Source: Peteryoungia rhizophila
Lineage (GTDB): Bacteria > Pseudomonadota > Alphaproteobacteria > Rhizobiales > Rhizobiaceae
NCBI RefSeq assembly: GCF_004912145.1
Contig: NZ_STGT01000001.1
Coordinates: 310,001 to 374,000 of the forward strand
Length of the DNA stretch: 64,000 bases
Direction of reading: 5' to 3'
Numbering within the stretch: the first letter of the stretch is position 1; each line of letters starts with the position of its first letter. Both the position numbers and the translations under genes were made by a program. Under the pieces are notes generated by a model. That model ran no database searches, was not told the origin of the DNA, and saw only the letters and a list, made by a program, of their open reading frames with translations. Below, in pieces: positions 5,830 through 54,121 of this stretch.

Positions 5830-5830
5830 G

Positions 5831-8800: not shown

Positions 8801-8845
8801 GATCGTCGGGCGCTCGGCAAAATGCCATTCGGGGCCTTGGCTCAT
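5831..8845 (-). CDS. hsdR: Type I restriction endonuclease subunit R
   Basis: A 1004-residue HsdR. The N-terminal nuclease core has PDVVIYVNGIPLIVIEAK, the D...ExK catalytic pattern. The motor domain has Walker A HTQGSGKSLTM, motif II VDEAHRTQ, motif III FGFTGTP, and motif VI ARTNRV. The C-terminal helical region (DUF3387-like) would bind the HsdM2-S core. HsdR translocates DNA with ATP and cleaves far from the unmethylated target. The ATG is 8 bases downstream of the hsdS stop. No truncation or lost key residue was seen, so the enzyme looks functional. Confidence 0.96.
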   Translation of the reverse strand: MSQGPEWHFAERPTIEHLKAMGYGFVAPAEHASLRQGENQVLFRPQLIDALMRINGIDRASAEAAYGELAAISGNETWLKVLRGDYARKVNGQETRQTLRVIDFLNPSNNLFSVTHQLRVKAENTRKPDVVIYVNGIPLIVIEAKSPLNVKDKTGEAFEQIRQYEQDIPRLFFSNVCNIVTDGALVLYGASGSGSKYYAEWRDPWPKLESDFTDTLAKGLWCLLEPSRLLDLIAHYVVFEKTETGTIKKICRYQQFRAVNRIVERVIEGKHRQGLIWHTQGSGKSLTMVFAALKLKTHRTIQSERLTNPNILVLTDRVDLHSQISGTFVACGLPNPTPIESIRDLHALIRSGTDGHTALSTIFKFQGSKEAIANSENWIVMVDEAHRTQEKDLGAYLRATLPNARFFGFTGTPVKKDDKNTYENFGVPGEGYLDKYGIDDAVADGATVPIYYTGRKTDWHIDEAKIDILFDTWFAELDDDKLNEIKKRGVQIEDLVKHPRRIELIAYDIWTHFKQYGRPDGFKAQIVAIDREAVILYKQALTKVIAEDLKAEGIEPAEALARANAMSACVYSINQEDSKPSEDAHKQAIRTELKAHYLDAEAEKLAKKAFGRKGDDPQFLIVCDKLLTGFDCPIESVMYLDKPLKEHGLLQAIARTNRVSDARKRNGLIVDYIGVSGHLEEALSSYRADDVKNAMRDLDDLRNQLQAAHSAVAALMKSLKRKANDKDALKAEYDAFVKLLGTEDKWFDFKARARSFIALYETLSPDPSVLEFTADLKWVANFLLYGTQHFEKRQAFDQMNYSEKIREMLEKHLEATGLSVTVKLRHITDPEFWEDFDPEGKTEEDLMTAAIRKTTELRKTVTERIDDSPHQYGKFSERLRQLLEKLESAQLSWSEKLKAAEELAKDITAEDAAHLEAGLSPGAYGILQILNGFTSGPHGEDLAMRLEKLYTDPVTAPSGWWAKDGLRKSLRQQVRSIAHLAGLKQLREIPEEVEAYALKHFAGQ

Positions 8846-8852
8846 TGGGCGT

Positions 8853-11532: not shown

Positions 11533-11662
11533 CTATGCTTATCCCTCACATCAGCCGCAGGCCGATCCTACCAAATCGCTGCGCACCGGCAAATTATCTG
11601 GACAAGGGCGACAAAGCGAATAGAAATTTGAGCACAATCTGTGGTCACACCCGAGGTGAATC

Positions 11663-12622
11663 TTGAGCGATATCAAACTGTTTCACTTTGGGGGCGCTCA
11701 AGTGACCGAGCTGCCGGGCACGGCCATGCAGGTGGAGAAGTCCCTGCAGGTGCTGTTTGAGGCCAATCTTGAGGCGCTGCTTGGCATCCGCTTCCTGGCG
11801 ACGGAGCACTCGACCGGTCCCGTGCATGGCGGCCGCATCGATACGCTTGGCCTGGATGAGGACAACTCGCCCGTCATCATCGAATACAAGCGCTCGGTGA
11901 ACGAGAATGTCATCAATCAGGGCCTGTTCTATCTCGACTGGCTGCTCGACCACCGCAAGGAATTCCAGTGGATGGTGATGGAGCGGCTTGGCGCCGATGC
12001 TGCCAATGCTGTCGAGTGGACAGCGCCGCGCCTGATCTGCATTGCTGGCGACTTTACTCGCTATGACGAGCATGCGGTCAAGCAGATCGCGCGTAACATA
12101 GAACTAATCCGCTATCGCCGGTTCGGTGACGATCTGCTGATGCTGGAGCTGGTGCACGCGCCGAAGACGGCGAGTGTAAGCACGCGGCAAGCTCCGAAGA
12201 CACTACCAGTCACTCCCGGCATCACTGTTGGGGAGACACCAGGTGAAGAGCCTGATCCTTACTTCACGCAACGACAGGCCTATCGCCTAGCGCAGTCATC
12301 GAGCGAGCTCCGCGACATCTTCGACGCCGCCTACCAGTTCCTGATCGGTCTCGGGGACGATGTGCAGGTGAAGGAGCTCAAGCAATACACTGCGTTCAAG
12401 CGGATCAAGAACTTCACTTGCCTGCAGATCTATCCGCAGGCCCGCAGCATCGCGGCCTATGTCAGACTCGATCCGTCAACTGTCGAGCTGGAGGAGGACT
12501 TCTCGCGCGACGTGACGAATATCGGACATCACGGGACGGGTGATCTGGAAATCATGCTGCGATCGATGGCTGATTTCGAGAAGGCGCAACCGTTGTTGCG
12601 GCTGGCGTATGAGGGTGGGTGA
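11663..12622 (+). CDS. DUF5655-type protein with PD-(D/E)XK nuclease core
   Basis: 319 residues. The N-terminal 120 residues contain GRIDTLGLDEDNSPVIIEYKRS, the D...ExK pattern of a PD-(D/E)XK nuclease related to NucS/DUF91 proteins. The C-terminal third (from YQFLIGLGDDVQVKELK to LYVRLDP-like sequence) resembles DUF5655. Between them lies a Pro/Thr-rich linker. The start is a TTG at 11663 preceded by GAGG. It is transcribed divergently from hsdM and followed 13 bases later by a DUF429 gene. Such proteins are frequent in defence islands, but the biochemical role is not known to me. The family call is from memory of the sequence pattern. Confidence 0.75.
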   Translation: MSDIKLFHFGGAQVTELPGTAMQVEKSLQVLFEANLEALLGIRFLATEHSTGPVHGGRIDTLGLDEDNSPVIIEYKRSVNENVINQGLFYLDWLLDHRKEFQWMVMERLGADAANAVEWTAPRLICIAGDFTRYDEHAVKQIARNIELIRYRRFGDDLLMLELVHAPKTASVSTRQAPKTLPVTPGITVGETPGEEPDPYFTQRQAYRLAQSSSELRDIFDAAYQFLIGLGDDVQVKELKQYTAFKRIKNFTCLQIYPQARSIAAYVRLDPSTVELEEDFSRDVTNIGHHGTGDLEIMLRSMADFEKAQPLLRLAYEGG

Positions 12623-12635
12623 TGCTGCGTCAGCA

Positions 12636-13445
12636 ATGACCACTTCCGTTGTTGGCTTCGATTCAGCCTGGACCGACAATCCAAAAGCGCCAGGTGCAAT
12701 TTGTGTTATCCGGCTCGACGCACACGGCGCACGGTTGCATATGGAGCCGAGGTTGGCTTCATTTAGTGAAGCCGCCGCGCTTATTCATGCAGAAAGGCTT
12801 GAGGTCAACAAGTGTGTCGTCGCGCTAGATCAGCCGACCATTGTTCCAAATCTCAGTGGCTCACGTCCGGTCGATAAAGTGGCGGGAGCTCTAATATCCT
12901 GGGCTGGCGGTGGAGTGCAGCCGGCCAATCGGTCGAAGCTTGGTATGTTCGATGACGCTGCACCCATCTGGCGGTTCAAGCATGCGATTGGCGCTTTTGA
13001 GGACCCAGACGCGGCACGGACTGCATCGACAGGGCTGTTTCTGATCGAGGTATTTCCCGCGCTTGCCCTGGTTGCTATCGATAGCGCCTATTGCAGGCGC
13101 CTGGGGGCTCCAAAATATAATCCCGCCAACAGACGCATGTTTCAACTGGATCACCTGCACTCCGTAGCTGAGACAATCCGGGCATTCGGAACACGAAATG
13201 GCTTGGAGCATCTAGAACTTTGGTGTTCAACCGCGGCGGCGAACCTGACGCCGACTAAAGCTGACCAGGACAAAATCGATGCGATGATCTGTGCTCTTGT
13301 CGGTTTACACTGGCTCGTGGCACCCCGTGAGCAATCTGTCATGATTGGTGACCTGGTCAACGGATATATGATTGCTCCGGCGCTTAGCGGCGTCCACGAG
13401 CGACTGGCCATAGCTGCACGAAAGAGGAATGTGCGGATTAGGTAG
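12636..13445 (+). CDS. DUF429 family protein
   Basis: 269 residues from the ATG at 12636. The N-terminus SVVGFDSAWTDN is the DUF429 hallmark (G-D-S-A-W), and the family has a predicted RNase H-like fold. Further conserved-looking parts are VALDQPT near residue 70, EVFPALAL near 145, and KIDAMICALVGLHW near 215. The last two match the acidic/alanine pattern at the end of RNase H-like folds. The longer frame from 12540 is rejected since it overlaps the previous gene. It follows the DUF5655-type gene by 13 bases on the same strand. Molecular function is unknown. Confidence 0.75.
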   Translation: MTTSVVGFDSAWTDNPKAPGAICVIRLDAHGARLHMEPRLASFSEAAALIHAERLEVNKCVVALDQPTIVPNLSGSRPVDKVAGALISWAGGGVQPANRSKLGMFDDAAPIWRFKHAIGAFEDPDAARTASTGLFLIEVFPALALVAIDSAYCRRLGAPKYNPANRRMFQLDHLHSVAETIRAFGTRNGLEHLELWCSTAAANLTPTKADQDKIDAMICALVGLHWLVAPREQSVMIGDLVNGYMIAPALSGVHERLAIAARKRNVRIR

Positions 13446-13622
13446 TGCGCCCTTAAGTTGCCGGCACGCAGCGGTCATTGTCAGGCGGATATAATGCATG
13501 CTCTTCAATTAACATCTCGAACTTGCCGCCATGCGATAGCCCGCCCCCAACCGCCGATCAAGTGTCACCGGACGAGGCTAGCACTTGGCACACACGCGTT
13601 AGAGACGAGCCGCCCAATTCAA

Positions 13623-14429
13623 TCATGCAGCACCGATGGCTTCTGCAAATTGATCCAACGTCCATATCTCGAAATGCGCGTCCAACAGCGCTCGCACCTC
13701 TGCAGTCAAAACCGGATGGGCAATTTTTCCACGAGACCAATCAGGCTTTGCATCGTGACTTAAAAGTATGACGTTGTCGAAAGAGGCACCAGCAGCCTTG
13801 GCGTCCAGCAGACCGAACAGAAGGTCAGCCCACACAAGGAAATCGCCACTTCCTTCATCCTTGAAGCCAGGCGGGGTCTTAGCTTTTTTTCGATCCGCAG
13901 CAACTTCGACCAGCGTAGACCGCGGAGCATATGGAACTAGCGCCTTCTCTACCAATCGCTCCAGAAAAGCTGATGTCTTGCTCACAAGCTCCGGCTCGAA
14001 AATATGCTCGTTGGTCTCTTTGAAGTAATCCAAAGCACTGGCGACGGAATCTATCCCCGAGACACCGGACTGCTTATACCTGTCGATCTCCCGCGACATC
14101 TCAGTGTGCTTCTTTGATACACTCTTAAAGATTGTATCAATTGCGCTCAGCTGATTGTTCCAGAATTCCTGAATAACTTGCCCAGGCACCACCACTGGCT
14201 TCTCGTGCAGCCCCACCAAATAGTCCATGATGTCCGAGCTCTTTCTGTGAGACGGGATACGCAGAAAGACATTAGCGTCCAGCACAATGGCGGACGAGGC
14301 CAACTCAAGATTTGCTGACGCGCCTTTTATCGCAAGCGCGAGACACTGGAGTGCTGGAATTTCTCGCTGGCGATTTAGAGTTTGTAGAAGCTGAGCGATA
14401 GAACTTTGTGGCGTAGAACCGTCAGCCAT
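13623..14429 (-). CDS. PIN-domain nuclease (PIN_8/DUF4935-like) coupled to a DUF262 protein
   Basis: 268 residues. The acidic residues expected of a PIN ribonuclease are visible in order: Asp in IVLDANVFLR, Glu in QEFWNN, Asp in SGDFLVWADLL and Asp in ILLSHDAKPDW. The region between carries a helical insertion of the kind seen in PIN_8. The start is the ATG at 14427-14429, which overlaps the stop of the DUF262 gene by 8 bases (ATGGCTGA). The longer frame to 14519 would run through the DUF262 C-terminus and is rejected. The tight coupling implies the two products act together in fixed ratio. The expected role is a metal-dependent RNase effector; anti-phage function is inference. Confidence 0.8.
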   Translation of the reverse strand: MADGSTPQSSIAQLLQTLNRQREIPALQCLALAIKGASANLELASSAIVLDANVFLRIPSHRKSSDIMDYLVGLHEKPVVVPGQVIQEFWNNQLSAIDTIFKSVSKKHTEMSREIDRYKQSGVSGIDSVASALDYFKETNEHIFEPELVSKTSAFLERLVEKALVPYAPRSTLVEVAADRKKAKTPPGFKDEGSGDFLVWADLLFGLLDAKAAGASFDNVILLSHDAKPDWSRGKIAHPVLTAEVRALLDAHFEIWTLDQFAEAIGAA

Positions 14430-16038
14430 ACCATACCTCAGCCGCTCTGTGCGCCAACAGTTCTCCCATAGTTCGCAGACTTTCAGCAGTCCATTTATCG
14501 AATTCTTGCAAGTCTTCAATAAATTCGCCTGGTGCTGCTAAAGGAAGCATCTTCTCGAGAAAGCTGCTCCAATCATCACCGCCATCCGCACGCTTTTCTT
14601 CAGTGCTCAAAAATGTGTTCCCAAGCGTGCTGCCCCAATAAGAAAGCTCACCATCCTCGAAGTCAGGATGATCCTTTATCGACTTCGGCATTATAAAATG
14701 CATGAAGTAGTAAGTATCAGGAGAAATTTTTTGAGATATCGCTGTATTTCTAATGAAGCTCAAAACGTTCTTGTTCAAACTCCGCTTAATAAGCCTATCG
14801 ATGAAATAATCCTTCTCAGGACTGAGATCGTTCAGCTCATAAAGTGCGTCGATCCACTGTCCGGAATTCGAAACTTTCCTAGCAGCTTCTGAAAACCGTC
14901 GCTCAATGTTACCCGTCCCTAAGTTTCCAACAACTATGCGTCGCGTTATCAGCTTGAGTAGGTAGTGCAAGCCTTCATCGGCATCATCAACAGCAACTAT
15001 CGCCATCATAAGCGGTCGAACTGTTATTACATTTAGGCGGCCTATGGCTCGGAACACAGACAGAGCGACCTCGTTCGCTGGGCCCGGAAGGCTTGGATCC
15101 ATCATCTGGAGGTAGAGAGGAAGATTTTCCTCTAAAATATCGACCAAGTCTAGCGGTGCCGGCGCCAGTCTATTTCCAAATTCCTGCCGCGACGCGAGAA
15201 AAGCAAACAGGTCCTTTGGCGGTATATGCCCGCTCCTCACGGTTACACAGTGCCTAATATACTGCACAAAACTGTTTGCTGCATCACTGGGAAAGGAGTC
15301 CGATATTCGCTTCCACCTATCGTAAATCTGCGTGCGAGCGGCCGGCGGCGATTCGCTGATAACGAAATTCTTAAGAAGATCTGCGGTTGTAAGATCCCTC
15401 CCTCTAGTATTGATAACCTCGAAAACTTGATATGCGGATGAAGGCGTTGGATGGACAAACACCGCAAAGTAGAGCCGATTCGTAATGAAGTCGGTCCATT
15501 TTCCAAGCCTTTTGAAAGCATCCGGTCGGAGATCATCTCGCAGCTCCTTCACTAAGAAATTGAAAGATTTTACAAGCTCTCCGGATACTGTGTCCCCCTG
15601 TGCTTTCCCGCCAGGAACCTCCCCAGTCGAAACTATATGCTGAAGCGTAAAGTTATCCGCCTCGTCAGTAAGTATAACTCGAGGATCATTTTCATCCGTT
15701 TCGTAGTTTATTGATGTCAGAAAATCAGCATTTAACCGATCCGCCAAAGCAGATCTCCCACGGCGCTTAGCTTCATGGTAAAGAGCGGCAGCCAGCAATG
15801 TCAGAGTTACAACTCGTTGCTGACCATCAACAATTTTTTTTCGTCCATCTTCGTCCGTTAGTATGATAAGCCCAAGGAAATAGGAGTTGGAATCGAGGCT
15901 CCGCTGTATGTCCTCAAAAAACTCTCTTACCTCATCTTCTCGCCAAGAATATTCTCGCTGATAGGGCGGGACCTCGAATGTAGATCCAGAAATAATCCCA
16001 CCAGCTGTGCTGGCAGATGCATTTAGCGGGGTATCCAA
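14422..16038 (-). CDS. DUF262 (ParB-like NTPase) protein with degenerate DUF1524 C-terminus
   Basis: 538 residues. The N-terminal DUF262 signature is clear: PPYQREYSW near residue 23 and KIVDGQQRVVTLTLL near residue 70 (the DGQQR nucleotide-site motif also found in GmrS and BrxU). The C-terminus aligns by eye to DUF1524: an IMPKS segment, LGNTFLS, and a final W-T-x4-R-like helix ending AAEVW. In active GmrSD-type enzymes the motif is EHIxPQ. Here it reads HFIMPK, so the nuclease His is apparently replaced by Phe. The stop overlaps the start of a PIN nuclease gene by 8 bases. I infer an NTP-sensing or modified-DNA-sensing partner that has handed the nuclease role to the PIN protein. Confidence 0.85.
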   Translation of the reverse strand: MDTPLNASASTAGGIISGSTFEVPPYQREYSWREDEVREFFEDIQRSLDSNSYFLGLIILTDEDGRKKIVDGQQRVVTLTLLAAALYHEAKRRGRSALADRLNADFLTSINYETDENDPRVILTDEADNFTLQHIVSTGEVPGGKAQGDTVSGELVKSFNFLVKELRDDLRPDAFKRLGKWTDFITNRLYFAVFVHPTPSSAYQVFEVINTRGRDLTTADLLKNFVISESPPAARTQIYDRWKRISDSFPSDAANSFVQYIRHCVTVRSGHIPPKDLFAFLASRQEFGNRLAPAPLDLVDILEENLPLYLQMMDPSLPGPANEVALSVFRAIGRLNVITVRPLMMAIVAVDDADEGLHYLLKLITRRIVVGNLGTGNIERRFSEAARKVSNSGQWIDALYELNDLSPEKDYFIDRLIKRSLNKNVLSFIRNTAISQKISPDTYYFMHFIMPKSIKDHPDFEDGELSYWGSTLGNTFLSTEEKRADGGDDWSSFLEKMLPLAAPGEFIEDLQEFDKWTAESLRTMGELLAHRAAEVWYG

Positions 16039-16602
16039 ACATTCCTCCGTCGTATTTAATCACAAGCCAAGACTGACAGCACCTGGTATCAATAGAAGCG
16101 TTTTAGGCGGCAGACACTTTGTTTCACATCTAACTCGCTTGCAGATGAGCCTACTTTCCAAGCATCGGCTGACGCCGAGGACTGCAATGCGCTCATCGGA
16201 AGATGCCAAAGGCCGCAGCCAACTCAGACAGCCAATCAATGCAATCGATATTCCGTTCGCGCAAAAAGACCTGGCAGGCCCCTTGCAAGTGCGCAAATTA
16301 CAAGCTGCTTGGTATTCCCTCCAACTGCAAGGCCGAAACATTGAAAGCCACATCTGTGTGCGTCACTCAATTTCGACTACTCCGACAAGGGGCCGAAACC
16401 GCGTCATCAAACTACATTGGCTCAAAGTGAGCAATTAGTTCCAGGTAGCTCCATCCGCTTCCGTTTGGACTGTCGGAGGGGCGGTCGAAATCTCAGGCCG
16501 CCACCGCAGAATAGCGCCATGGCACCCTCTACGCTAGCACAACGCCATGAAGCGCAGTATCGTCTAGAGACCGATTTGGACACCGCTCACTCTCTAAACA
16601 GG
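16039..16602. other. Gene-poor gap between the DUF262 gene and the RecQ-UvrD gene
   Basis: 564 bases with only short overlapping frames on both strands, none with homology I recognise or a good ribosome site. Both flanking genes are on the minus strand, so the part next to 16038 must include the DUF262/PIN promoter. Base composition is mixed, with many CGA/TCA words, unlike nearby coding DNA. It may be the remains of a lost gene. Confidence 0.35.
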
Positions 16603-19600
16603 CTAGATCAGCTCTTTAACAAATACCAACTCCGGAAGAACGACATTCCAGACGTCTTGCCTCAGTGCTCCCTGAAACTCCTCACCGTTATCAACCCTGC
16701 GCCATTGAATGATGGCTCGCGCCGACCCTTGAGTGAACCGCAGCCCCTCTGGCGGTCGATAGCTTTTCGCCATCCGCCCGATTATCACACCATCCGCGTT
16801 CTGGATCAGCCACCGGCCGTCACTCTCGACCAACGTTACCGGATCATTGGTTCGTAGTTTTGCCAAGGCAGTATGGACCGCATGTGATGAGCTCTGCCGT
16901 CCTGACCAAGAGAGATCGACCATCTGCGGCTCGATCAACTGATAGCGGATCGAGTGATCTGAGGCCTCATTCGCTTTCGCTGTGATCTGTCGCTGTAGTA
17001 TGCCGTGGGTGTCGGGTCCCACCAGTGGGTGCTGACCCTTTGTTGACATGATTGCCAGACTGCGCCTGGCACGGGTCATGGCGACATAGAAAAGCCGCCT
17101 CGGCGCATCCCGATCTTCCCCTCGTGAATTCCGATCCCAGCCACCATCCAAGATCACCACATCATCGAATTCGAGCCCCTTGGCTCGATGCGCAGTCAGG
17201 AGCATCAGGCCGCGTTGTTCCTGACGAGCATCTCGTGCCCATTCGGCCAGCATTTCGATAAGGTCGGCGACCGGAACTGCCTTGCCATCCAGCTCCAAGC
17301 TGAATGCCGACAGGGCGTCAGATATCATCGTCCACCAACAGTTCGCGGTCTGTGCGGCGATGAACTCCTGCATCTGTGAGATTGTTAGCATCTTTGCAGG
17401 TTTCGCCCTCAAGAAGGTGCGGAAAGCCCTTACTTCACGAAGACGCCAGAAGGGCGGCAAGGTCTCGCTCGCAAGCTGCACCGGAATGCCCCTCGCCTCA
17501 CAATAGCTTCGCACCGGTTCCAGCAGACGCCACTCCCGTGCAATGATTGCGGTCTTTGACCAGGACCAATCCGGCACCAGCTGTGACAATCGGACCAGCT
17601 CATCCACTGCGGCTTGAGCCTGTCCGTCAGTGCTGCAGTGCAAAAGTTGAACCCGCCCCTGGGCTACAGGATCGAGATTGGCAAGCGTGCCGCCGGCGGG
17701 AGCTTTTGCTCGATCCCGATTTATGAGGATATCATGCTCTGCCTTCATTCGACCCGCAGCCGACGCAATGACCCAATTGGCGGCAGCAATAATCGCTGCG
17801 GTCGAACGATAGTTTTCGATGAGATACGTCGGCTTGGCGTTGTAATCCGTTTCGAAGCGCCTGATGAACTCGATCGAGGCGCCGGCGAACGCATAGATGT
17901 TCTGATCATCATCTCCCACGGCAAAGAGGCTGAGGCGTTGATCCTGGTCATCGAGGGAGCGGCCGGCTACCGCTGCGATCAACCCATACTCCTCGGGACC
18001 AATGTCCTGGTATTCATCTACCAGGATCCACCGATACCCCTCGATCAACGTTTGGCGAAGTGCCTCGGCTTCTTCCTTCTGGAGACCATCGCCCTTCAGC
18101 AAGGCCGTTGCTTCCACCACTACCTTGTCGAAGTCGCGCTCGCTGTCTGTGTCAATCTGCCCGGCAAAGCTCGCGCCCACCAACCGCATAGCCAATGCGT
18201 GGCAAGTCGACACTGTCACGGCGATTGCGTCGTCGCCGATGAGGTCCTTCAGTCGCCTGCGAATTTCAACGGCGGCATGGCGATTGTATGTAAGCACCAG
18301 GATACCGCGCGGATCCTCGCGCCGTATCCGAACCAGATATGCAACGCGATGCACCAAGACGCGCGTCTTGCCGGATCCAGGGCCCGCGAGCACCAGCACA
18401 TTTGTCTGCTCACGATCGTCTGCAACGATCTTTGACTGCGTTTGACTGCCTAGATCATCTACGATCCGACGCCAGCTTTCCGGTGTCGTCTGTCTACGAA
18501 GCTCTCCGGCGCGGTCTGGCATCCACCGCTTGAGGAATCTTTCCTTGTCCAACTGGAAGTAGTCCGACGCCAATCGCTCAGCCTCATTGATAGAGATGAG
18601 GCCACGAGACGCGTAGGCCGCCATGATGTGGGTCTGAATGGTTTGTTCGCTGTAATGCTCTTCGAGAGGCAGAAAGTCCTTCTGGGTGAATTGGCCTGTG
18701 CCAGGGCGTAAGTTCACGGTAATCGCAGGCCTGAAGATCGTCAGGCCTCGCCCGAGCGTGATGACCCCCTGCTCGTGAAGCCACATCAGCGCCCGGCTCA
18801 AGAGCTTTGTTTCATCACGGACAGATCCTTTCAGAAAGACGTCTTCCATGATGGCGCCTTGCAGCTTGCCGATCGTCGTCTCGACTCTGATATCCTTGCC
18901 GCGTGTTCCCTTGGGCACTAGCCCCTCTAGATGCAACAGTAGCAGCTCCGATCCACGTCGCCGGAGCTCTGCTGTTTTGCTAAGCGCCTCCCAGGATCGT
19001 TGTAGCCGCACCAGGCATGTGCTCCTGTTGAGCTTCTGGAAATGCACATTGCCACGCCCACCGTCCTCATCACGCCCATCCTGCGCAAAACTACGAAGGT
19101 GAGCTTCGACCAAATCAGGACGAACGCTTGCATGACCCTGGTCACGTAGCATCTGACAGGTCGTCGCAAGGTGCAGGGGGTAGGCCTCCCCATCTTCGGC
19201 ATCTGGCGCATTTTCGCGCAAAGCCCCAATCAGCGCAGTCTCTAGAGAAGCTGCAATCTGAAACCTGTGTCGCGAAGCCCCTTCAATACCAACATGCACG
19301 AACATGGTGATCGCGGTGTCGTCGGTTGCAATGCCGAGGGTTTCGAGATCGGATAATGCCTTGCGGAGGGCACCTCCTGTAAGGCCGCTCGCACCCGAAA
19401 GTTCATCAGTGGATACTCCGGCGTCCGAAGAGGCCGTCATCAAGTGCTGAACCAGGGCTATGAGCTGCTTGCGCCGCGACCCCGTGATCTCCGCCTTTGT
19501 CAGGATGGTATCGACCTCCTGCATGGTGCGAATTCGCAAAGATGAGGGGAATACCTGCACGCGGTTTTCGTCGCGTGTCAGCAAGGTGGATTCTTCAAGC

Positions 19601-21660
19601 CAAGCAATCGCGGTCTTGACCCTCGTGTCGTCGGTCGCACTGTCACGCTCAAAATCCTGCGATGTGTCCTCACGAACGATCTCGCCAGGCGTCGCAACGA
19701 CTCCACCTTGGTGCTTGCCCTTTGCATCCAGGCGACGCAGTGCCTTCAGGATCCCACTGATCTCGTGACGCGCCAGGCGTGAGCGTGCGCTGAGCGAAAA
19801 CTGTCGCTCGACATCATCCGTGTTGAACAACAACACGCACACGGCAGGACTGCGATCTCGTCCGGCGCGTCCCGCTTCTTGCAGATAGTTTTCCAGCGAG
19901 CCCGGTATATCGCCATGGACCACAAGCCGGATGTCGGGCTTGTCGATCCCCATGCCGAAAGCATTGGTCGCGGCAATGATCCTGAGGTCACCGACCCGGA
20001 AGCGTTCTTGCGTATCCTGCTTGCGTTCGGGTGTTAGGCCGGCATGAAAGTAGTCAGCGGCCAATCCCTGCTGCTGCAAGAAGCCAGCAACTTTCTCGGT
20101 TGCAGCACGCGTGGCGCAGTAAACGACCGCTCCCGACACTCCCTCTTGCGGGAGTGCGCGCTCGATGGTGTCCAGGATGTCCGCCAGTTTACGACTGCGG
20201 TGGGTTTCTTGGACTTCGAAGGTGAGGTTGTCTCGCGTTGCTCCTCCGTCGAGCAGCAGGAGCTCCACCCCAAGCCGAGAATGAAAGTGGTCCCTAATGT
20301 CGCGCACTACTTCGGGCTTGGCCGTCGCAGTCAGACAGATGACTGGTGCCGGCTCTCGGTCCCCGGTGTATTCGCGGATGAACCGCGATACGTAGCGATA
20401 GTCCGGTCTGAAGTCGTGTCCCCACTTTGACACGCAATGGGCCTCATCGAGGATCCAGTAGCCGATCTCACGCTGCGACAGGATCAAGCGCACGGAAGCA
20501 TTTCGCAGCTGCTCAGGCGAAATCAGCAAGATGGCCGCCTCACCCATCCGGATCTGATCTAGTGCTGCATGCCGCTCTGGCAGTGACAGGAGGCCGTTGA
20601 TCGTCACGCAGCTGGAGATGCCATGTCGTGCGAGACCTTGGACCTGATCGGCCATAAGGGCCACCAATGGGGAGATCACGACAGACAGAGCGCCGGTCTT
20701 GTCGAACCGTGAAAGCGCTGGGATTTGATAGCAGACAGATTTGCCAGTGCCAGTCGGCAGGATGCCGAGCACCGATCGGCCAGCCATTGCCTCTGCGACA
20801 ATGCGCTCCTGCAAAGGGCGACCGGCATCATCCTTCGGTTCGGCCCGAAACCCGTCAAACCCGAACCAGCGCGACAACGCTTTCTTTGGATCGCTTCTTT
20901 CCGGGCACCACTGACAACGGGCGTCGTCGCACGCCTTGTCGCGGAGGTGCCTGACGATCTGCGCTGCCTCACGGAACTGCGCCCGCACCCAGGGTGGCAT
21001 GACAGAATCTCCGCCAGCGACGGAGATCCAGGAGAGCGCATAGGCCATTGGCCACCCAAGGTGGGGCGAGGACAGGCGTTGCAATACATCTTGCACTCGG
21101 GCTGCGCACGCCTGGCCTTCCAGGAGCTGTAAAATCGACCGCTCGGCGGCCGAAGGTGTAGGGCGGGCCGCTCGGCGCAAGTCGGCGAAAAACTCGTCGA
21201 ACCCAGCACTGCCTGGTGCGCAGGTCGAGAGATAGTGGTAGGCTTCGAGGATCGCCGGCACGCGATCAGCAAGGCTCTTGAATGCCTCTATCTGATTAGC
21301 CAGGACTTGTAGAACAAGACGGGCGTCCAATTCTGGATCGTTGATATGCCCAGCTTGAAGCCTTCCATCATGATGGTGCTTGACTAGGTGGTGATAAGGA
21401 TTACGCGGAAAAGCCAGCGGATTCAGCCAGAGCGTATCGACAGGCTTCGATGAGAGCCGGCCAAAGCTAGGCCTCGCTGCAGCAAGATGAGGAAGATCAT
21501 GACGCAGAATGTTGTGCCCGAGCATAAACTCGGCCTCTGACGCCAACTTCTCCAGTTGATCAAAAGCGGCCTGGCGATCTCCATTCTTGAAAACAACCGT
21601 TTCCTGGTCGCGGCCTCGGACGGCCGCGAAGGCAAATATCTCGGCCTTTTCGGGATTCAC
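16603..21660 (-). CDS. DEDD exonuclease-RecQ helicase-UvrD helicase fusion
   Basis: A giant protein of 1685 residues from the first canonical start (GTG 21658-21660). An N-terminal DnaQ-like exonuclease has motif II GHNILRHDLPHL at about 48-59 and a candidate motif III Asp near 112. RecQ has Walker A LPTGTGKSVCYQ at about 301-312, motif II LDEAHCVSKWGHDFRPDY at about 404, and motif VI QEAGRAGRD near 594. A UvrD/PcrA-like helicase has Walker A LAGPGSGKTRVL near 1091, motif II VDEYQDIGPEEY near 1200 and motif V AHRAKGLEFDDVV near 1510. The exonuclease motif I (CLSIDLEVNPE) is in the same frame but upstream of the GTG. The true start may therefore be the ATA at 21712-21714, preceded by AAGGGG. 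Probably a DNA repair/defence motor-nuclease; no named system is known to me. Confidence 0.9.
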   Translation of the reverse strand: MNPEKAEIFAFAAVRGRDQETVVFKNGDRQAAFDQLEKLASEAEFMLGHNILRHDLPHLAAARPSFGRLSSKPVDTLWLNPLAFPRNPYHHLVKHHHDGRLQAGHINDPELDARLVLQVLANQIEAFKSLADRVPAILEAYHYLSTCAPGSAGFDEFFADLRRAARPTPSAAERSILQLLEGQACAARVQDVLQRLSSPHLGWPMAYALSWISVAGGDSVMPPWVRAQFREAAQIVRHLRDKACDDARCQWCPERSDPKKALSRWFGFDGFRAEPKDDAGRPLQERIVAEAMAGRSVLGILPTGTGKSVCYQIPALSRFDKTGALSVVISPLVALMADQVQGLARHGISSCVTINGLLSLPERHAALDQIRMGEAAILLISPEQLRNASVRLILSQREIGYWILDEAHCVSKWGHDFRPDYRYVSRFIREYTGDREPAPVICLTATAKPEVVRDIRDHFHSRLGVELLLLDGGATRDNLTFEVQETHRSRKLADILDTIERALPQEGVSGAVVYCATRAATEKVAGFLQQQGLAADYFHAGLTPERKQDTQERFRVGDLRIIAATNAFGMGIDKPDIRLVVHGDIPGSLENYLQEAGRAGRDRSPAVCVLLFNTDDVERQFSLSARSRLARHEISGILKALRRLDAKGKHQGGVVATPGEIVREDTSQDFERDSATDDTRVKTAIAWLEESTLLTRDENRVQVFPSSLRIRTMQEVDTILTKAEITGSRRKQLIALVQHLMTASSDAGVSTDELSGASGLTGGALRKALSDLETLGIATDDTAITMFVHVGIEGASRHRFQIAASLETALIGALRENAPDAEDGEAYPLHLATTCQMLRDQGHASVRPDLVEAHLRSFAQDGRDEDGGRGNVHFQKLNRSTCLVRLQRSWEALSKTAELRRRGSELLLLHLEGLVPKGTRGKDIRVETTIGKLQGAIMEDVFLKGSVRDETKLLSRALMWLHEQGVITLGRGLTIFRPAITVNLRPGTGQFTQKDFLPLEEHYSEQTIQTHIMAAYASRGLISINEAERLASDYFQLDKERFLKRWMPDRAGELRRQTTPESWRRIVDDLGSQTQSKIVADDREQTNVLVLAGPGSGKTRVLVHRVAYLVRIRREDPRGILVLTYNRHAAVEIRRRLKDLIGDDAIAVTVSTCHALAMRLVGASFAGQIDTDSERDFDKVVVEATALLKGDGLQKEEAEALRQTLIEGYRWILVDEYQDIGPEEYGLIAAVAGRSLDDQDQRLSLFAVGDDDQNIYAFAGASIEFIRRFETDYNAKPTYLIENYRSTAAIIAAANWVIASAAGRMKAEHDILINRDRAKAPAGGTLANLDPVAQGRVQLLHCSTDGQAQAAVDELVRLSQLVPDWSWSKTAIIAREWRLLEPVRSYCEARGIPVQLASETLPPFWRLREVRAFRTFLRAKPAKMLTISQMQEFIAAQTANCWWTMISDALSAFSLELDGKAVPVADLIEMLAEWARDARQEQRGLMLLTAHRAKGLEFDDVVILDGGWDRNSRGEDRDAPRRLFYVAMTRARRSLAIMSTKGQHPLVGPDTHGILQRQITAKANEASDHSIRYQLIEPQMVDLSWSGRQSSSHAVHTALAKLRTNDPVTLVESDGRWLIQNADGVIIGRMAKSYRPPEGLRFTQGSARAIIQWRRVDNGEEFQGALRQDVWNVVLPELVFVKELI

Positions 21661-21966
21661 CTCAAGATCAATCGAAAGGCATCGGTCAATGAAGAGAGAA
21701 GCTGTATCGCCTATTTTATGTGCCCCTTAGCGCTCCCAATCCGCCCACTCCTCCCTGATTCCTTCTGGAGCCAAGGCGGCGCCATGGATCAGTTGACGGT
21801 ATTCTCATGAAACAACAATGGCGTGCATGCCGCAAGCGCATTCACTCGCGCCTCTGATCTATCCCTCCATCGGCAGGACAGATCGACAGACTCCATACAC
21901 TTGGCGTAAGCCTAGTGTTTGCAAACGGTCGGGGACAATGCTCCGACGAGTGGTTACCGGGGACTA

Positions 21967-22794
21967 ATGGCAAAGGGCGACTGGACAGACATTGAGAATG
22001 ATCTGATCGTCTCAGACTACTTCGCGATGCTCGCGAAGGATTTCGCAGGAGATCGCTACAATAAGGCTGAGCATAATCGACGACTCCAGACCTTGATACA
22101 TCGTGGACGTGGCGCCATCGAATTCAAGCACCAGAACATTAGTGCGGTTCTGATGTCTCTCGGCGAAGCCTGGCTCCCAGGCTACAAGCCAGCGTTCAAT
22201 TTCCAAATGTCACTTGTCGACGTGGTGGTGCGGTGGTTAGCTCGAAACCGAGAATGGTTGATCCGCGATACCACCGCCCCTTGGGCGTTCCAGGACGCAC
22301 TGCAGCTCTGGGTGGGGCCTCCACCGACGATGTCCAACGAGCCGCCGCCCGAGGAGCTTGAAAAGACCCTGCACATCGCGCGTAAGTTTGACGTAGCGGG
22401 AAGAGACGAACGAAACCGAGCATTGGGACGCGCCGGCGAGGAGATGGTCGTTCGCCACGAGCGCTCTGTTCTCCGGTCGGCCGGACGCGAAGACCTTTCT
22501 CGAGCTGTCAGGTGGATATCCCAAGAAGACGGCGATGGTGCGGGCTTCGACATCTTGAGCTTCTCACCCGATGGGCGGTCGAGGTTGATCGAAGTAAAGA
22601 CGACGAACGGATGGGATCGAACCCCATTTCATATCTCCAGGAATGAGCTCGCGGTCGCCGAAGAGAGGCCGAACGAATGGCGGCTGCTGCGGCTATGGAA
22701 TTTCTCGCGCGAACCGAGAGCCTTCGAGCTTGCGCCTCCGCTGGCTGCGCATGTGTCTTTGACTGCGACAGCCTTCCAGGCAACCTTTAACTAG
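21967..22794 (+). CDS. DUF3883 restriction-endonuclease-like protein
   Basis: 275 residues from the ATG at 21967, which is preceded by GGGGA; the TTG at 21919 is less likely. The C-terminal 120 residues contain GFDILSFSPDGRSRLIEVK, the D...ExK motif of DUF3883, a PD-(D/E)XK-fold domain found at the end of many defence proteins. It is followed by NEW-x-LLRLWNF. The N-terminal half (helical, with IENDLIVSDYFAMLAKD and RRLQTLIHRGRGAIEFKHQNISAVL) resembles the N-domain of HNH- or ScoMcrA-like restriction proteins. It is divergent from the exonuclease-RecQ-UvrD gene, with a 252-base gap. Probably a DNA-cutting or DNA-binding accessory. Confidence 0.75.
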   Translation: MAKGDWTDIENDLIVSDYFAMLAKDFAGDRYNKAEHNRRLQTLIHRGRGAIEFKHQNISAVLMSLGEAWLPGYKPAFNFQMSLVDVVVRWLARNREWLIRDTTAPWAFQDALQLWVGPPPTMSNEPPPEELEKTLHIARKFDVAGRDERNRALGRAGEEMVVRHERSVLRSAGREDLSRAVRWISQEDGDGAGFDILSFSPDGRSRLIEVKTTNGWDRTPFHISRNELAVAEERPNEWRLLRLWNFSREPRAFELAPPLAAHVSLTATAFQATFN

Positions 22795-23028
22795 CACCAA
22801 TTGGCCGATCATCAGATCGTCACAGCCGCCCGTGGACGAGCGCCATTCTCACGTAGCGTGCGGCTGCACCTGGCTGCGCAATGCGCCTCCCTGAGCATCC
22901 TTGAGTCAAAGAGAGACGATCAGATAGTTGTGGGCGCCGGAGAGGCACCCTGTGACCGATCGGACCTAGGCATTATGGCTTGAAGGTCCCTAGGGATAGA
23001 GCATGTGATCGGATGCGAGTAATCAGTG

Positions 23029-24219
23029 ATGAGTATTAGAACGCCGGTGCTGTCGATCCCATTGCGAAGCATCAAGACGCCGGCAGTCGTTGGCTTGCTA
23101 CACTACTACCGGGTAGACCTGGGAATGGGCCAGAAGCGATTGCGCAATCGCTACGCCTTGGTCCCTGAAGTGGACTTGCGTGCATTCGAGACCCGGGCAG
23201 TCATCGACTGGTTGACGGTGGAGGTCAAACTCAACAGGTCAAGTCAGTTTCAATGGCTTCAAAACGAGATCGAGGACTTCTTCGATCGGCCGCTGTATGT
23301 TCGAAACGACCGTCCGCTGCCGAATGACGCCGCCACGACGTTCACGATAAGGGTTCAGGAGCCGGCGGTGCTTCAGGTAAGGAAGGCCCTAGCTCGCCTC
23401 GAGGCCAAGTTCGGATTCACAGAGCCTCCGAAGCTTTTCGGAATCGAGATCAGCGTCGACTTCACCCCCAGCAAGCCGGATGATCTAGCAAGGGCGACGA
23501 TGATGCGCGTTCTCTCTAACCACCTGGTCGTGGAGCGGGACTATCTGCAAGCTGGGCTCAGTCGACCCAGAACCGTTTGGGGCGGCCGCGGTAAGGTCCT
23601 ACAGCTTGTCGATGGGAGCGGCGTCGCCCGGCAAGATCCATTCACTGACGGAACGGTTGAGATAGGTGGTGAAACGGCTGACGTTCGTTGGCGGATCATG
23701 GACAAGATCGTTGACCGGCAGAACCGGGCCGCCGGGACCCACGTGGACTTGCCTCAGGACTTGAGGCGCGCTCGCATTGAGGTGACGCTGAATTCCTGGG
23801 AGATCCAGCAAATCGGGGTGTCAGCTTTCGACAAGCTGGCAGGCGTGAGCTTCACAACCTTCCAGGGCCGATACTTCCGCTTCATGCTTCCTACGTTCCC
23901 TAAGCAATCGACCTCCAAAGGACGAGCTTCAGAGGCTATCCACGCGTGGACAGCACAGCAGCGTATGACGAATTTCCGCCAGGCCGGAAACCTCAGCATT
24001 TCAGCTCTGGACAAGCAGTCCGTGGCTCACCGCCTGAACCTTCGGAAATCCGAACGAGGGACAATGAAGAGGTTGGGACTGCGCATCCCAAAAGACCTCC
24101 AGGAGGCAAAAGGACGTGACGGCACTTTCATCGCTTACGAAGACCTGAATGAGCGCGTCCGCGAGGCACTGCGGCGTCTCGGCAACCGCGTCGCCGCCGA
24201 CTTCGCCTCTGGGCTTTGA
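23029..24219 (+). CDS. Unrecognised 396-residue protein, possibly replication-initiator-like
   Basis: Start is the ATG at 23029 (a GTG lies directly before it). The visible features are VIDWLTVEVKL near residue 65, which is like the first strand of Rep_trans/RepA-like initiators. Next are KLFGIEISVDFTP near 138, a central RARIEVTLNSWE segment near 247, and a basic C-terminal region with repeated Arg/Lys and Leu. The alternation of acidic beta strands (DWLTVEV, GIEISVDF, ARIEVTL) would suit a nuclease or initiator beta-sheet. I cannot assign it to a family with confidence. It lies just inside the integrase end of the island, a place where element-specific replication or transfer genes are often found. 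Confidence 0.65.
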   Translation: MSIRTPVLSIPLRSIKTPAVVGLLHYYRVDLGMGQKRLRNRYALVPEVDLRAFETRAVIDWLTVEVKLNRSSQFQWLQNEIEDFFDRPLYVRNDRPLPNDAATTFTIRVQEPAVLQVRKALARLEAKFGFTEPPKLFGIEISVDFTPSKPDDLARATMMRVLSNHLVVERDYLQAGLSRPRTVWGGRGKVLQLVDGSGVARQDPFTDGTVEIGGETADVRWRIMDKIVDRQNRAAGTHVDLPQDLRRARIEVTLNSWEIQQIGVSAFDKLAGVSFTTFQGRYFRFMLPTFPKQSTSKGRASEAIHAWTAQQRMTNFRQAGNLSISALDKQSVAHRLNLRKSERGTMKRLGLRIPKDLQEAKGRDGTFIAYEDLNERVREALRRLGNRVAADFASGL

Positions 24220-24441: not shown

Positions 24442-26256
24442 TCACCTGACAATCAGGTGGGCTAAGTCCAGCCCCGGATAGGCGATCGCGTTGACCAGCT
24501 CGGCGCGCTGCTCAAGGACGCCCTGCGTCAAGACCCCGTAACCTTGGGTCACACGATTACCGGTGCTGACATGTCCGAAGATGAAATTGAACTGCTCATC
24601 AAGATAGCCTGCTCTTCTCATTGCATCAAAGGCACCGTGGCGGAAGGAATAGAGCGACAACCCGCGACCATTCTTGAGACCAATTTTCTCAAGGTATCGC
24701 CCGAAGTCCCGGCTGAAATCAGATAACATCTGCCCGCGCTCGTTACGGACTGCGAGTGGGAAAACGCGCGTATGTCCGCCGTCTCGAATTGCCGCCAAGT
24801 AGTCGAGGAAACCTAGCTCAATTAGCTCCTGGTGGACCGGCACAACACGGCGAGAACTTTCAGTCTTCAACCTTTTCACTTCATCGCCGCCATCATCTGC
24901 GGTTTCGGTGATATCAAAGATCCAGGTCTGCCGCTCCTCCCGGACATCTGATAGGCCGAGCTGCGCAATCTCGCCAGGCCGGGCGCCTGAGTAGAGCATG
25001 ATCAATGGTATCCAGTATCGATGGTCACGGATTCTGACATCACCCGGCTTGTTCCAGAACCGAGGCGCATCGTCACTTACACACCCTGTGAACAACGGCG
25101 ACCGGAAAAGAGCGTTCATTTGGTCGACCGTAAATGGGTAGACCTTCTTCCGCTTGTCCTTGGCCAGGAACATCCCTTCGGTTGGATTGTAATCGATGTA
25201 TCCATGTCCGACGAGCCAGCTGCAAAAAGCGGCAAGGTTGGATAGATAGCGGTTCACGGTGTTCACACTCAGGACCGACTTACGGACCGTCTCGTTGTGC
25301 GCGACGATCTGGGCGATCTTCATGCCCTTGAACTCTTTTGTCTCAGTCGCCTTGACAGGATAAAGCATCAGAAGTGCCTTCCATTCGCGGACAGCTTTCT
25401 TGTCGATCTTCGACACGGGAAAGGTCGTGCCGACATGGTCCACGAATAGACCGATATCGCGGCGAGCCTGGGCCAACGTGTCGGGAGTGACGCTGCGAGG
25501 ATTTTCGCGGGCGTAAACTTCGAACAGCTCCATAACTGATTGACCGGGCGCCGCAGTCTCGCGGGGCTTGGCGAAGGCCGGTTTGACGATGGGATCCTTG
25601 GGTTTCCCGGAGTAGTCGCCGACATCTCGCTCTACTGTCCGCTCAAGGGCCTCGATATCGGCGCGCATCATGAGTGCACTGAGTTCGCGAAACTGCTCGG
25701 ATCCGTCGTCAACCAACAGCTGATTGCTCTCTTTGAAATGACGCACGTCCTCCTCGACCAAGGCATACCTGCCGGCCGCCAGGTCTCGTTTAAGGGCAAT
25801 CAACCGACGAGAACGAAGGTTAGCGTCATCCTGCCGAGCGCGCTTGAGGAGCTCAAGGTCTGCATAGCCGTTGATCATGCTTACCATGTCATCAGACCGG
25901 ATCTCGCCGCGATCGATACGCAGCCAGACCAGGGCAGCTTCCCTTTCAAGGTCCGCATCCGTCGGCATCGCGCGCCGCCTCTCTGCGTCCTCGTTCAGCC
26001 TCGCCTCGTAGTGCTCCCAGACGGCGACCGCTTTGTCCTGGGCACTCAGATGCCGGCGGGCGCGCATATCATCGAACTTGGCGTCCCACTTGTCGACTTC
26101 AGCATTGAGACGACGCTTAGCGGTCGCCTCGTCCTTAGTTCGAAGTGAGATCTTCTTGTCCTCACTCGGGAAGTGATCTCGCAATTCCGCAGGGATGTAG
26201 ATCCGGGCATAGTAGGTGCCGCCTTCGCGGCGAATGAGGTTTGAGCGTCGTGTCAT
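24442..26256 (-). CDS. Tyrosine site-specific integrase with DUF6538-type N-terminus
   Basis: 604 residues from the ATG at 26254-26256. The N-terminus (NLIRREGGTYYARIYIPAEL) is the DUF6538/arm-binding domain common in alphaproteobacterial island integrases. A SAM-like core-binding domain lies around residues 250-360. Catalytic residues can be placed: Arg in MLYSGARPGEIAQL, His-Arg region SFRHGAFDAMRRAG, second His in FGHVSTGNRV and the Tyr in VTQGYG. A longer frame to 26301 only translates the upstream repeats. The gene reads toward the island interior and probably catalyses its integration and excision. It is convergent with the unknown gene ending at 24219. Confidence 0.93.
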   Translation of the reverse strand: MTRRSNLIRREGGTYYARIYIPAELRDHFPSEDKKISLRTKDEATAKRRLNAEVDKWDAKFDDMRARRHLSAQDKAVAVWEHYEARLNEDAERRRAMPTDADLEREAALVWLRIDRGEIRSDDMVSMINGYADLELLKRARQDDANLRSRRLIALKRDLAAGRYALVEEDVRHFKESNQLLVDDGSEQFRELSALMMRADIEALERTVERDVGDYSGKPKDPIVKPAFAKPRETAAPGQSVMELFEVYARENPRSVTPDTLAQARRDIGLFVDHVGTTFPVSKIDKKAVREWKALLMLYPVKATETKEFKGMKIAQIVAHNETVRKSVLSVNTVNRYLSNLAAFCSWLVGHGYIDYNPTEGMFLAKDKRKKVYPFTVDQMNALFRSPLFTGCVSDDAPRFWNKPGDVRIRDHRYWIPLIMLYSGARPGEIAQLGLSDVREERQTWIFDITETADDGGDEVKRLKTESSRRVVPVHQELIELGFLDYLAAIRDGGHTRVFPLAVRNERGQMLSDFSRDFGRYLEKIGLKNGRGLSLYSFRHGAFDAMRRAGYLDEQFNFIFGHVSTGNRVTQGYGVLTQGVLEQRAELVNAIAYPGLDLAHLIVR

Positions 26257-26266
26257 CAGGGGGCTC

Positions 26267-26301
26267 CCGGAACAGCTTACCGGAACAGTAAACCGGAACA
26301 C
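26267..26301 (-). repeat. Three 13-bp-spaced direct repeats upstream of the intact integrase
   Basis: On the + strand the 9-mer CCGGAACAG occurs at 26267 and 26280, and CCGGAACAC at 26293, exactly 13 bases apart. Read in the direction of the integrase gene they are TGTTCCGG-type units directly before its start. Such iteron-like spacing suits arm-type integrase sites or an excisionase/repressor operator. It is seen directly; the role is inference. Confidence 0.8.
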
Positions 26302-26462
26302 CTCTAGACGAGAAAGCTGTTTCCTGGCAATATGTTGAAGTGAATCAAAGCCGTGAGGAAAGTTGGATTATCGTCCAGGTTCCCCAGCCAATTCTCCCTA
26401 AAAGCCCTTAATTCCTTGATTTTCCAGTCGTGCCGGATATCGTTTTGGCATCATTGGCGACC

Positions 26463-26497
26463 TGATGCCCAGAACTGATGCCCAAAGGTGATGCCCA
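26463..26497 (+). repeat. Second set of three 13-bp-spaced direct repeats, upstream of the decayed integrase
   Basis: TGATGCCCA is present at 26463, 26476 and 26489, again with 13-base spacing. It lies 52 bases before the ATG of the integrase remnant at 26549, in the same orientation relative to that gene as the other set has to the intact integrase. The word differs, which suggests a separate protein specificity. Confidence 0.8.
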
Positions 26498-26548
26498 GCC
26501 GAATTCGGCGCCGTCAAACCTTCAGGCTTGATACAGGGTCTGTTCGTC

Positions 26549-26785
26549 ATGGCTGTGCGCCACGAGGTCGAGAATCTCATCCGCCGCGGAAACATCTTCT
26601 ACTGGCGCCCCCGGGTACCGGCCGCTTTCACTCAATGCCAGCCCGGCAGCCGGCTTTCACTCAGCCTTCATTGTTCCGACCATAAAAAGGCGCAAGTCAT
26701 CGGCCGGAAGCTCAACACCAGGTTGGCCGAATTGAAACTGCATTCGAAGGAAGCGATGTCCAAGCAGCAGCTCCAGAAACTTTGA
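26549..26785 (+). pseudogene. Remnant of a second tyrosine integrase (N-terminal domain only)
   Basis: 79 codons from the ATG. The product has the arm-binding pattern of rhizobial integrases: LIRRGNIFYWRPRVPAAF, then RLSLSLHCSDHKKAQVIGRKLN and a short basic/leucine helix. It stops at 26783-26785, before any core-binding or catalytic domain, and no catalytic remnant is seen downstream before the histidine kinase gene. It is head-to-head with the intact integrase. I read it as the stub of an older integrated element, with insertion or deletion having removed the rest. Confidence 0.65.
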
Positions 26786-53583: not shown

Positions 53584-53761
53584 CCTGGCTTTTATGAGCG
53601 GCATCTTTTTCATTGTTTTGGGATGAGGCCTCAAGGGGCAGGTGAAGCGCGAAGCCACAATAGCTGCTTTAAGCGCGATCGAGCACCGCGTTTATTGCCG
53701 ATATGAAGGCGCAAAGGTGCCATGGGTAAAAGCTCGCGTTACCTCCGGCTTGATGTTTCCG

Positions 53762-53909: not shown

Positions 53910-53950
53910 CCCCTCCGATCAACCTGCCTGTCTTCATATTTTTCAAGGGC

Positions 53951-54121
53951 TTAGCCGACCGGTCCCGGAACAGTTCTCCGTATCACTTTTCCGGAGCATG
54001 CCGACCCCTTGTCGGCGGACAGTGAGCGCCCGACATCGACAGATTGTTTGAACTTGCCGTTCTCGTCGCGGCCAATGTAGCGTTTGTCGGTTCGGGTATC
54101 GATAAGCTCACGTTTCGACAT
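53951..54121 (-). CDS. Small basic stress-associated protein, C-terminus altered
   Basis: 56 residues from the ATG at 54119-54121. The first 40 residues (SKRELIDTRTDKRYIGRDENGKF, then DVGRSLSADK) recall a short conserved protein found widely in rhizobia and other alphaproteobacteria, where the sequence normally ends in a Lys-rich tail. Here the tail is replaced by an unrelated sequence (KVIRRTVPGPVG), which suggests a frameshift near codon 42. No strong ribosome site precedes it. It may be a decaying gene. The family call is from memory; its function is unknown. Confidence 0.5.
   Translation of the reverse strand: MSKRELIDTRTDKRYIGRDENGKFKQSVDVGRSLSADKGSACSGKVIRRTVPGPVG

Follow-up and report, generated by a model that had tools for sequence, protein, structure and literature searches.

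Introduction

Lambda Int, as set out in the available part of PMC4880445, is heterobivalent: its N-domain sits on arm sites and the rest of the protein on core sites, with IHF sites between them. In the mycobacteriophages CrimD, Pixie, L5 and Giles, according to the accessible portion of PMC3203893, pairs of arm repeats flank the core and the words vary by phage; substitutions at N-terminal positions 17 and 19 were put forward there as an explanation of the differences. The integrases IntS of KplE1 and IntS of ICEMlSym R7A are described, in the excerpts at hand, as having arm-type sites at the integrase promoter in attL and as exerting negative autoregulation; the same excerpts give five arm motifs for the ICEMlSym attP. 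Direct repeats one helical turn apart are, in the available text of PMC7498355, the sites of the phage 186 protein Apl. Arm-binding domains are described as three strands plus a helix in the accessible part of PMC8138268, in which DUF6538 has 0 occurrences; the literature that we searched yielded no paper naming this domain and, on arm sites, their spacing and their specificity, nothing closer than the mycobacteriophage study.

Here we follow up two arrays of short direct repeats that face two integrase genes carrying DUF6538. We put a probability of about 0.88 on the reading that the arrays are putative arm-type sites of the tyrosine integrases of tRNA-inserted islands and that DUF6538 is the predicted arm-binding domain. 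We favor an attachment-site function because the word of the integrase-side array turns up again at the opposite end of the element.

Two arrays at the junction of two islands

The window, by which we mean the whole stretch of 64,000 nucleotides of Peteryoungia rhizophila DNA that was analysed, contains the following features.

24442..26256, minus strand: intact tyrosine integrase 1, 604 aa, with DUF6538 N-domain, core-binding and catalytic domains; right end of island 1
26017..26256, minus strand: DUF6538, the predicted arm-binding N-domain, first 80 aa of integrase 1 (from AlphaFold2 and covariation)
26267..26301, minus strand: array 1, three putative arm-type sites, period 13, between integrase 1 and the core
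26343..26355, plus strand: IHF-like site in the spacer between array 1 and the core, 1 mismatch to WATCARNNNNTTR
26374..26391, plus strand: attachment core, an exact 18-bp copy of the 3' end of tRNA-Gln(CTG), between both integrases
26409..26421, minus strand: IHF-like site in the spacer between the core and array 2, exact consensus
26463..26497, plus strand: array 2, three putative arm-type sites with the word TGATGCCCA, period 13, upstream of the integrase 2 remnant
26549..26785, plus strand: integrase 2 remnant, DUF6538 domain alone, 78 aa; left end of the neighbouring island
53965..53998, plus strand: decayed distal-type array of the array 1 word, CCGGAACA / CCGTATCA / CCGGAGCA, period 13

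Array 1 is made of the 9-mers CCGGAACAG at 26267, CCGGAACAG at 26280 and CCGGAACAC at 26293; read on the gene strand its word is TGTTCCGG(T/G), which is also present in the relatives L251-L255 and at the distal end of island 1. Array 2 repeats TGATGCCCA at 26463, 26476 and 26489. Not one of 100 dinucleotide shuffles of the window matched either triplet pattern at up to 3 mismatches; array 2 is the sole exact 9-mer triple window-wide at any period from 9 to 30, and array 1 is exact over 8 bases. These shuffles, the window-wide triple scan and the 118-locus survey described below rule out chance repeats. The two period-13 triplets reported in a preliminary description of this DNA are thus real, at the coordinates given there and far from chance. 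That description also held copy number, period and placement relative to the gene to be the same in both arrays; three copies and a period of 13 are indeed common to them, whereas placement is similar only, with array 1 lying 10 bp from the likely start codon of integrase 1 and array 2 lying 51 bp from the ATG (26549) of the 78-aa remnant.

Integrase 1 matches PF20172/DUF6538 with an E of 2.8e-18 in a Pfam scan, and its match to Phage_integrase is weak (E 5.1e-5, score 23.6 against a cut-off of 27.1). Six relatives scanned fall on both sides of that cut-off, L127, L262, L263 and L267 above it and L265 and L268 below; L268 is also without a DUF6538 match at E 0.01. Residues R426, K464, R539, H540 and Y573 are invariant across 17 aligned sequences, and we take these R, K, R-H and Y columns to be the catalytic residues of tyrosine integrases. 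The likely start of integrase 1 is the ATG on the minus strand with its first base at 26256; a longer protein beginning at GTG 26301 is unlikely because its frame would run through array 1, which would then be translated. The remnant matches PF20172 at E 4.1e-08 (Pfam, frame 26528-26785). A Pfam scan at E up to 0.1 found PF13356 in neither protein, and that family has 0 matches in the genome itself. The window contains no tRNA, and positions 26200-26600 contain no Rfam RNA.

An intact tRNA-Gln(CTG) lies 13.2 kb left of the window, at L133:6783-6856 in the 100 kb examined leftwards, giving island 1 a core-to-core length of 39.5 kb. Just inside this tRNA-Gln copy, at L133:6909-6942, is CCGGAACA GTTTG CCGCATCA CTTTT CCGGAGCA, a triplet of the array 1 word with the same period of 13 and the same orientation, which marks the integrase-distal end of island 1 and is accompanied by an IHF-like site with one mismatch at L133:6875-6887. 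The window contains the junction of two back-to-back islands that have one tRNA-Gln core copy in common and use different words. The array at 53965, which has 3 mismatches to the array 1 triplet and aligns with the distal end of island 1, probably marks a tandem island junction (window 53700-54020), and a partial third copy of the tRNA-Gln end is found at about +85,957; the stretches immediately left of the 53965 and +85957 junctions are homologous to each other. Because of this third core copy and the decayed third array, we think that the tRNA-Gln locus has probably accumulated several elements. The partial third copy lies within L135:1600-2060 (window about +85,600 to +86,060), a further probable tandem junction that involves this tRNA-Gln. 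For the integrase 2 word TGATGCCCA, no distal array emerged at the thresholds applied to the 204 kb examined, where a stretch at 86 kb was also searched by eye.

The cargo of island 1 (window 5086-22794) appears defence-like, and an uncharacterised gene adjoins the integrase.

5831-8845: HsdR, type I restriction
8853-10058: HsdS, type I restriction
10042-11532: HsdM, type I restriction
14422-16038: GmrSD_N protein
16603-21660: DEAD plus UvrD double helicase
21919-22794: NOV_C protein, matching PADLOC PDC-S36
23026-24219, plus strand: 397-aa protein, convergent with integrase 1, no Pfam or PADLOC match

Upstream repeats across the DUF6538 family

PF20172 is present in 182 of 297 genomes of the host's family, in 54 of 289 genomes of the class draw and in 96 of 349 of the phylum draw, these three draws overlapping. 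From the family and class draws came 121 matches for which upstream DNA was available, including three in the genome that contains the window; L049, L064 and L065, which are mis-framed or truncated, were excluded from all upstream counts, leaving 118. The trait scored was a direct repeat of 10 bases, identical at 8 or more of them, within the 120 bp that precede the domain. A period of 13 occurred at 83 of 118 loci, against a mean of 3.4 and a maximum of 8 in dinucleotide shuffles and 10 of 117 in a control region still farther upstream; of the remaining periods tested between 6 and 40, 12 reached 28 of 118 and all others at most 12. Either 12 or 13 was found at 99 loci, and at 71 of the 80 whose frames span at least 450 aa; nine of the 19 loci lacking both have frames of that length.

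The first-copy 9-mers of 101 confident arrays comprise 56 distinct words. They cluster near the consensus TGnTACACA, in an alignment that was seeded with that same word, and both TGTTCCGGT and TGATGCCCA are similar to it. Most arrays consist of two copies; a third is present in 22 of 101, compared with 2 of 404 off-register controls, and a fixed three-copy rule is therefore rejected. The triplets are accordingly a feature of the two integrases in the window and of near relatives of integrase 1, not of the family, because so few arrays have a third copy. The preliminary description had suggested a conserved three-site architecture with family-specific words, perhaps bound by the DUF6538-type N-domain, with an alignment of regions upstream of many such integrases as the check for 13-bp periodicity. 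The periodicity is there, as is the diversity of words, whose letters, as shown below, covary with DUF6538 residues more than with the remainder of the protein; repeats before 99 of 118 loci bear out a conserved array. What does not survive is its fixed copy number, and the description took in one end of the element alone. An in-frame ATG was found for 84 of 101 arrays, the first one at a median distance of 12 bp; in 12 of these cases it fell within the array or ahead of it.

As a control, 30 loci of PF13356 integrases (L221-L250; raw counts without shuffles) have upstream repeats with period 12 in 18, period 10 in 9 and period 13 in 1. Repeat spacing therefore seems to go with the family of the arm domain, since PF13356 loci peak at 12 and DUF6538 loci at 13. 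Turning to viruses and plasmids, none of the 8 records in a phage collection reached the N-domain, viral-collection scans using two integrases gave nothing usable, and 42 plasmid records were left out of the analysis.

The same word at the far end of the element

To find the distal ends of 26 further DUF6538 elements, we searched 60 kb of each from a point 600 bp before the domain. In 24 of them a core repeat 16 to 35 bp long turned up at a distance of 5 to 28 kb; L025 and L099 had no distal core within 60 kb. In all but one of the 24, the core overlaps the 3' end of a tRNA for Gln, Ala, Thr, Met or Ser. We then scored each proximal word against the 130 bp inside the distal core, the cores being hand-picked from candidate repeat lists. 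An element's own word outscored the words of other elements at its distal end (mean 14.3 vs 11.2 of 18), and 0 of 20,000 permutations did as well, in a test where related elements are not independent. When 300 random stretches of an element's DNA were scored in the same way, no more than 3 did as well as the distal end in 19 of 24 elements. The recurring word keeps its orientation and lies just inside the duplicated tRNA 3' end.

Five elements fell below this threshold: L022, L044, L016, L072 and L089, with 7, 21, 64, 102 and 300 of the 300 random stretches reaching the score, respectively. For L072 the word register was, as judged by eye, chosen wrongly in this test, and at the distal end of L016 no word was seen. 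The L089 element (in L188-L190) has TGTTCCGG-type words on the integrase side and a TGTAACAC-type word of another family at the distal end; it is possibly a hybrid or an eroded tandem. A second integrase inside this element that might explain the foreign word was sought 2-29 kb downstream, by tblastn with one relative, and none was found. L047 and L111 have period 12 at both ends, and in L046 and L041 the best spacing differs between ends (13 and 12), the distal array of L041 being weak by eye. On the IMG/VR contig L267, a single DUF6538 integrase is preceded by two pairs of related words, each pair with period 13 and the pairs ~160 bp from each other, a layout that would suit an unsplit attachment site.

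The word does not track the target tRNA: elements that share a tRNA-Gln core have TGTAACAC, TGCTAATAG or TGTTCCGG words, and the TGGTACACA word occurs with both Ala and Thr tRNAs. The consensus of IHF is WATCARNNNNTTR; at no more than 1 mismatch it is present in 18 of the 24 spacers on the proximal side and in 16 of the 24 on the distal side, as against 12% and 15% in composition shuffles.

Word letters follow residues of the N-domain

Among 26 stretches along the integrase, residues 2-41 of the domain frame predicted the word best, as judged by the agreement of pairwise protein distances with word distances (rho 0.33; 0.02 to 0.30 for the other 25). Across 77 proteins the N-domain given the rest of the protein had a partial rho of 0.24 (p 0.001), and the rest given the N-domain 0.06 (p 0.10); this analysis and the first column scan relied on a PWM that had been seeded with TGnTACACA and is thereby biased towards C6 and C8. 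For that scan 113 loci were selected by the seeded PWM score, and the 100 of a register-blind set were drawn from these, so words far from the consensus are under-represented. In the register-blind analysis (100 loci, 68 clusters) the register was assigned blind to positions 3 and 6-9; residue and letter counts give one vote to each 70% cluster, and L031, with a stop in the domain, is excluded from the residue tables.

The strongest pairs, given as residue/word position, are 20/8 (Z 10.6) and 18/6 (Z 9.6), followed by 20/7 (Z 7.6), 61/8 (Z 7.2), 35/3 (Z 7.1) and 33/6 (Z 7.0). The null maximum over all pairs, from 300 shuffles, has a 95th percentile of 4.7 and a largest value of 7.7; residues 33 and 35, at Z ~7, stand above the former and below the latter. 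Arg18 goes with C6 in 45 of 50 clusters, compared with 3 of 18 for other residues, and Arg or Lys20 with C8 in 38 of 44, compared with 0 of 24. Gln33 accompanies A6 in 5 of 7 clusters (other residues, 2/61), Lys35 accompanies G3 in 11 of 16 (13/52) and Trp35 accompanies C3 in 8 of 9 (9/59). Arg to the G of a C:G pair and Gln to A are familiar contacts.

New loci from the phylum draw (n=25), with the register again assigned blind to positions 3 and 6-9, had a confident pair in 14 cases and none in 11. In these, Arg18 occurred with C6 in 13 of 14, every residue 18 being Arg; Arg20 occurred with C8 in 3 of 4 (others, 0/10), and Lys35 with G3 in 9 of 9 (others, 1/5). The covarying positions in integrase 1 are R18 and Y20 on strand 2 and D33 and K35 on strand 3. 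Its Arg18/Tyr20 with C6 and G8 fits the rules for residues 18 and 20, as do the Arg/Arg at the aligned positions of the integrase 2 remnant with C6 and C8; Lys35 of integrase 1 is paired with T3, against the G3 usual for lysine. A full-protein scan placed some columns outside the N-domain at Z 6 to 9.7 (null maximum 6.1, 60 shuffles). Shared ancestry is probably behind these high values and so contributes. Two viral-collection integrases, L262 and L263, have by eye Gln at residue 18 and T at position 6 (TCCCCTAGA, TGACCTAGA), and look as if they had been re-specified.

Predicted fold of DUF6538

AlphaFold2 modelled the first 80 residues of integrase 1, with 20 aligned sequences, at pLDDT 81.4 and pTM 0.64. 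The predicted elements are E5-9, E15-20, H23-28, E33-37 and H43-77, that is, three beta strands and a long helix. The model places residues 18 and 20 on strand 2 and residues 33 and 35 on strand 3, with a single residue between the two members of each pair. Foldseek with this domain model gave no significant match (best E 0.22). When 601 chains were re-aligned with VIA, an AP2 DNA-binding domain came first (Z 4.2) and integrase arm domains took ranks 2, 3 and 5, the four spanning Z 3.8 to 4.2; unrelated folds score nearly as well, and such a Z can reflect no more than a common arrangement. The fold comparison is coherent in direction, but weak. The N-domain profile found no integrase among its 8 matches, up to E 10, to the sequences of solved structures.

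A model for DUF6538 attachment sites

We posit that the attachment site of these elements would run from an arm array through an IHF-like site, the core (the tRNA 3' end) and a further IHF-like site to a second arm array, and that both arrays of an element would share one element-specific 9-bp word in the same orientation. The DUF6538 beta-sheet residues 18, 20, 33 and 35 (integrase 1 numbering) would read this word. By analogy with lambda, bending of the DNA by IHF would let one integrase span both an arm word and a core half-site, and which arms are used would decide between integration and excision. Integrase on the proximal array would probably limit its own expression, a step suggested by the position of the array and by the KplE1 and ICEMlSym IntS proteins; autoregulation is probable because the integrase-side array sits on the gene's leader. 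Taken as an analogy, the lambda scheme accounts for the parts seen.

The location of the arrays also invites a rival reading, in which the arrays are nothing but an operator or promoter element of the integrase gene, serving a repressor or autoregulation and having no role in recombination. The arrays do lie just upstream of the start codon, at a median of 12 bp, and KplE1 IntS and ICEMlSym IntS, in the excerpts available, repress their own promoters from attL. An exclusive operator would not call for the same word beside the distal core copy, 5 to 28 kb from the gene, nor for word letters that track the integrase's own N-domain, and we consider this reading improbable. The tracking bears equally on whether the arrays could be sites for a recombination directionality factor, an excisionase coating direct repeats. 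Excisionases of this kind do bind such repeats, phage 186 Apl being an example in the accessible part of PMC7498355. Nevertheless, 13 bp is not one helical turn, the arrays are on both arms, and covariation of letters with integrase residues on one beta sheet is not predicted for an unlinked excisionase, all of which leaves this role very improbable. Short tandem direct repeats next to an uncharacterised gene, here the 397-aa gene (23026-24219) that adjoins integrase 1, could also bring to mind the iterons of an element's replication origin; yet the arrays precede most DUF6538 integrases examined, stand at both element ends and have letters that follow the integrase, and we attach almost no weight to this idea.

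If the arrays are arm-type sites, a function can be proposed for a domain that is named as unknown and is present in 182 of 297 genomes of the host's family. Arm-site specificity would become testable on natural variation, with 56 distinct words in 101 arrays, and 13-bp words beside a tRNA end would provide a sequence signature that delimits islands of the DUF6538 family. What the diversity of words is for invites a more tentative suggestion, toward which we are inclined to be skeptical: it may be insulation, four DUF6538 beta-sheet residues that can quickly be re-specified keeping words private among islands that compete for one tRNA core. Were this so, islands would not excise or trap one another, which would permit tandem islands as in the window, and specificity would be readable from sequence.

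Comparison with known systems

Lambda Int and attP, with P and P' arms and the IHF sites H1, H2 and H', resemble the DUF6538 elements in their arm sites, IHF-like sites and core layout. DUF6538 elements differ from lambda in having two or three tandem 13-bp-spaced words per arm, in one orientation, and in combining tRNA cores with a DUF6538 N-domain. The P4-like integrases with PF13356/Arm-DNA-bind_3, such as those of HPI and HAI7, have a beta-sheet arm domain, as predicted here for DUF6538, a home in mobile elements and upstream direct repeats, and the solved arm domains of the HPI/HAI7 type (3rmp, 3jtz, 3ju0) are ranks 2, 3 and 5 of the VIA alignment, at Z 3.8 to 3.9. They differ in their period, 12 in 18 of 30 loci and 13 in 1 of 30, and there is no PF13356 in the proteins of the window; their repeats (period 12, sometimes 10) could nonetheless be taken through the same residue-to-base analysis. 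The ICEMlSym word, TGKTGGTATC in the available excerpt, differs from those of the window. Within the literature searched, and as far as the accessible part of the study goes, the mycobacteriophage integrases are the closest precedent for covariation between words and N-terminal residues; relative to DUF6538, their repeats are 11-bp, some are inverted, and they come from a handful of phages of mycobacterial hosts, with no mention of DUF6538 in the accessible part of that study. The proposed mechanism is of a known kind; the family assignment, the spacing and the residue-to-base pattern appear to be new.
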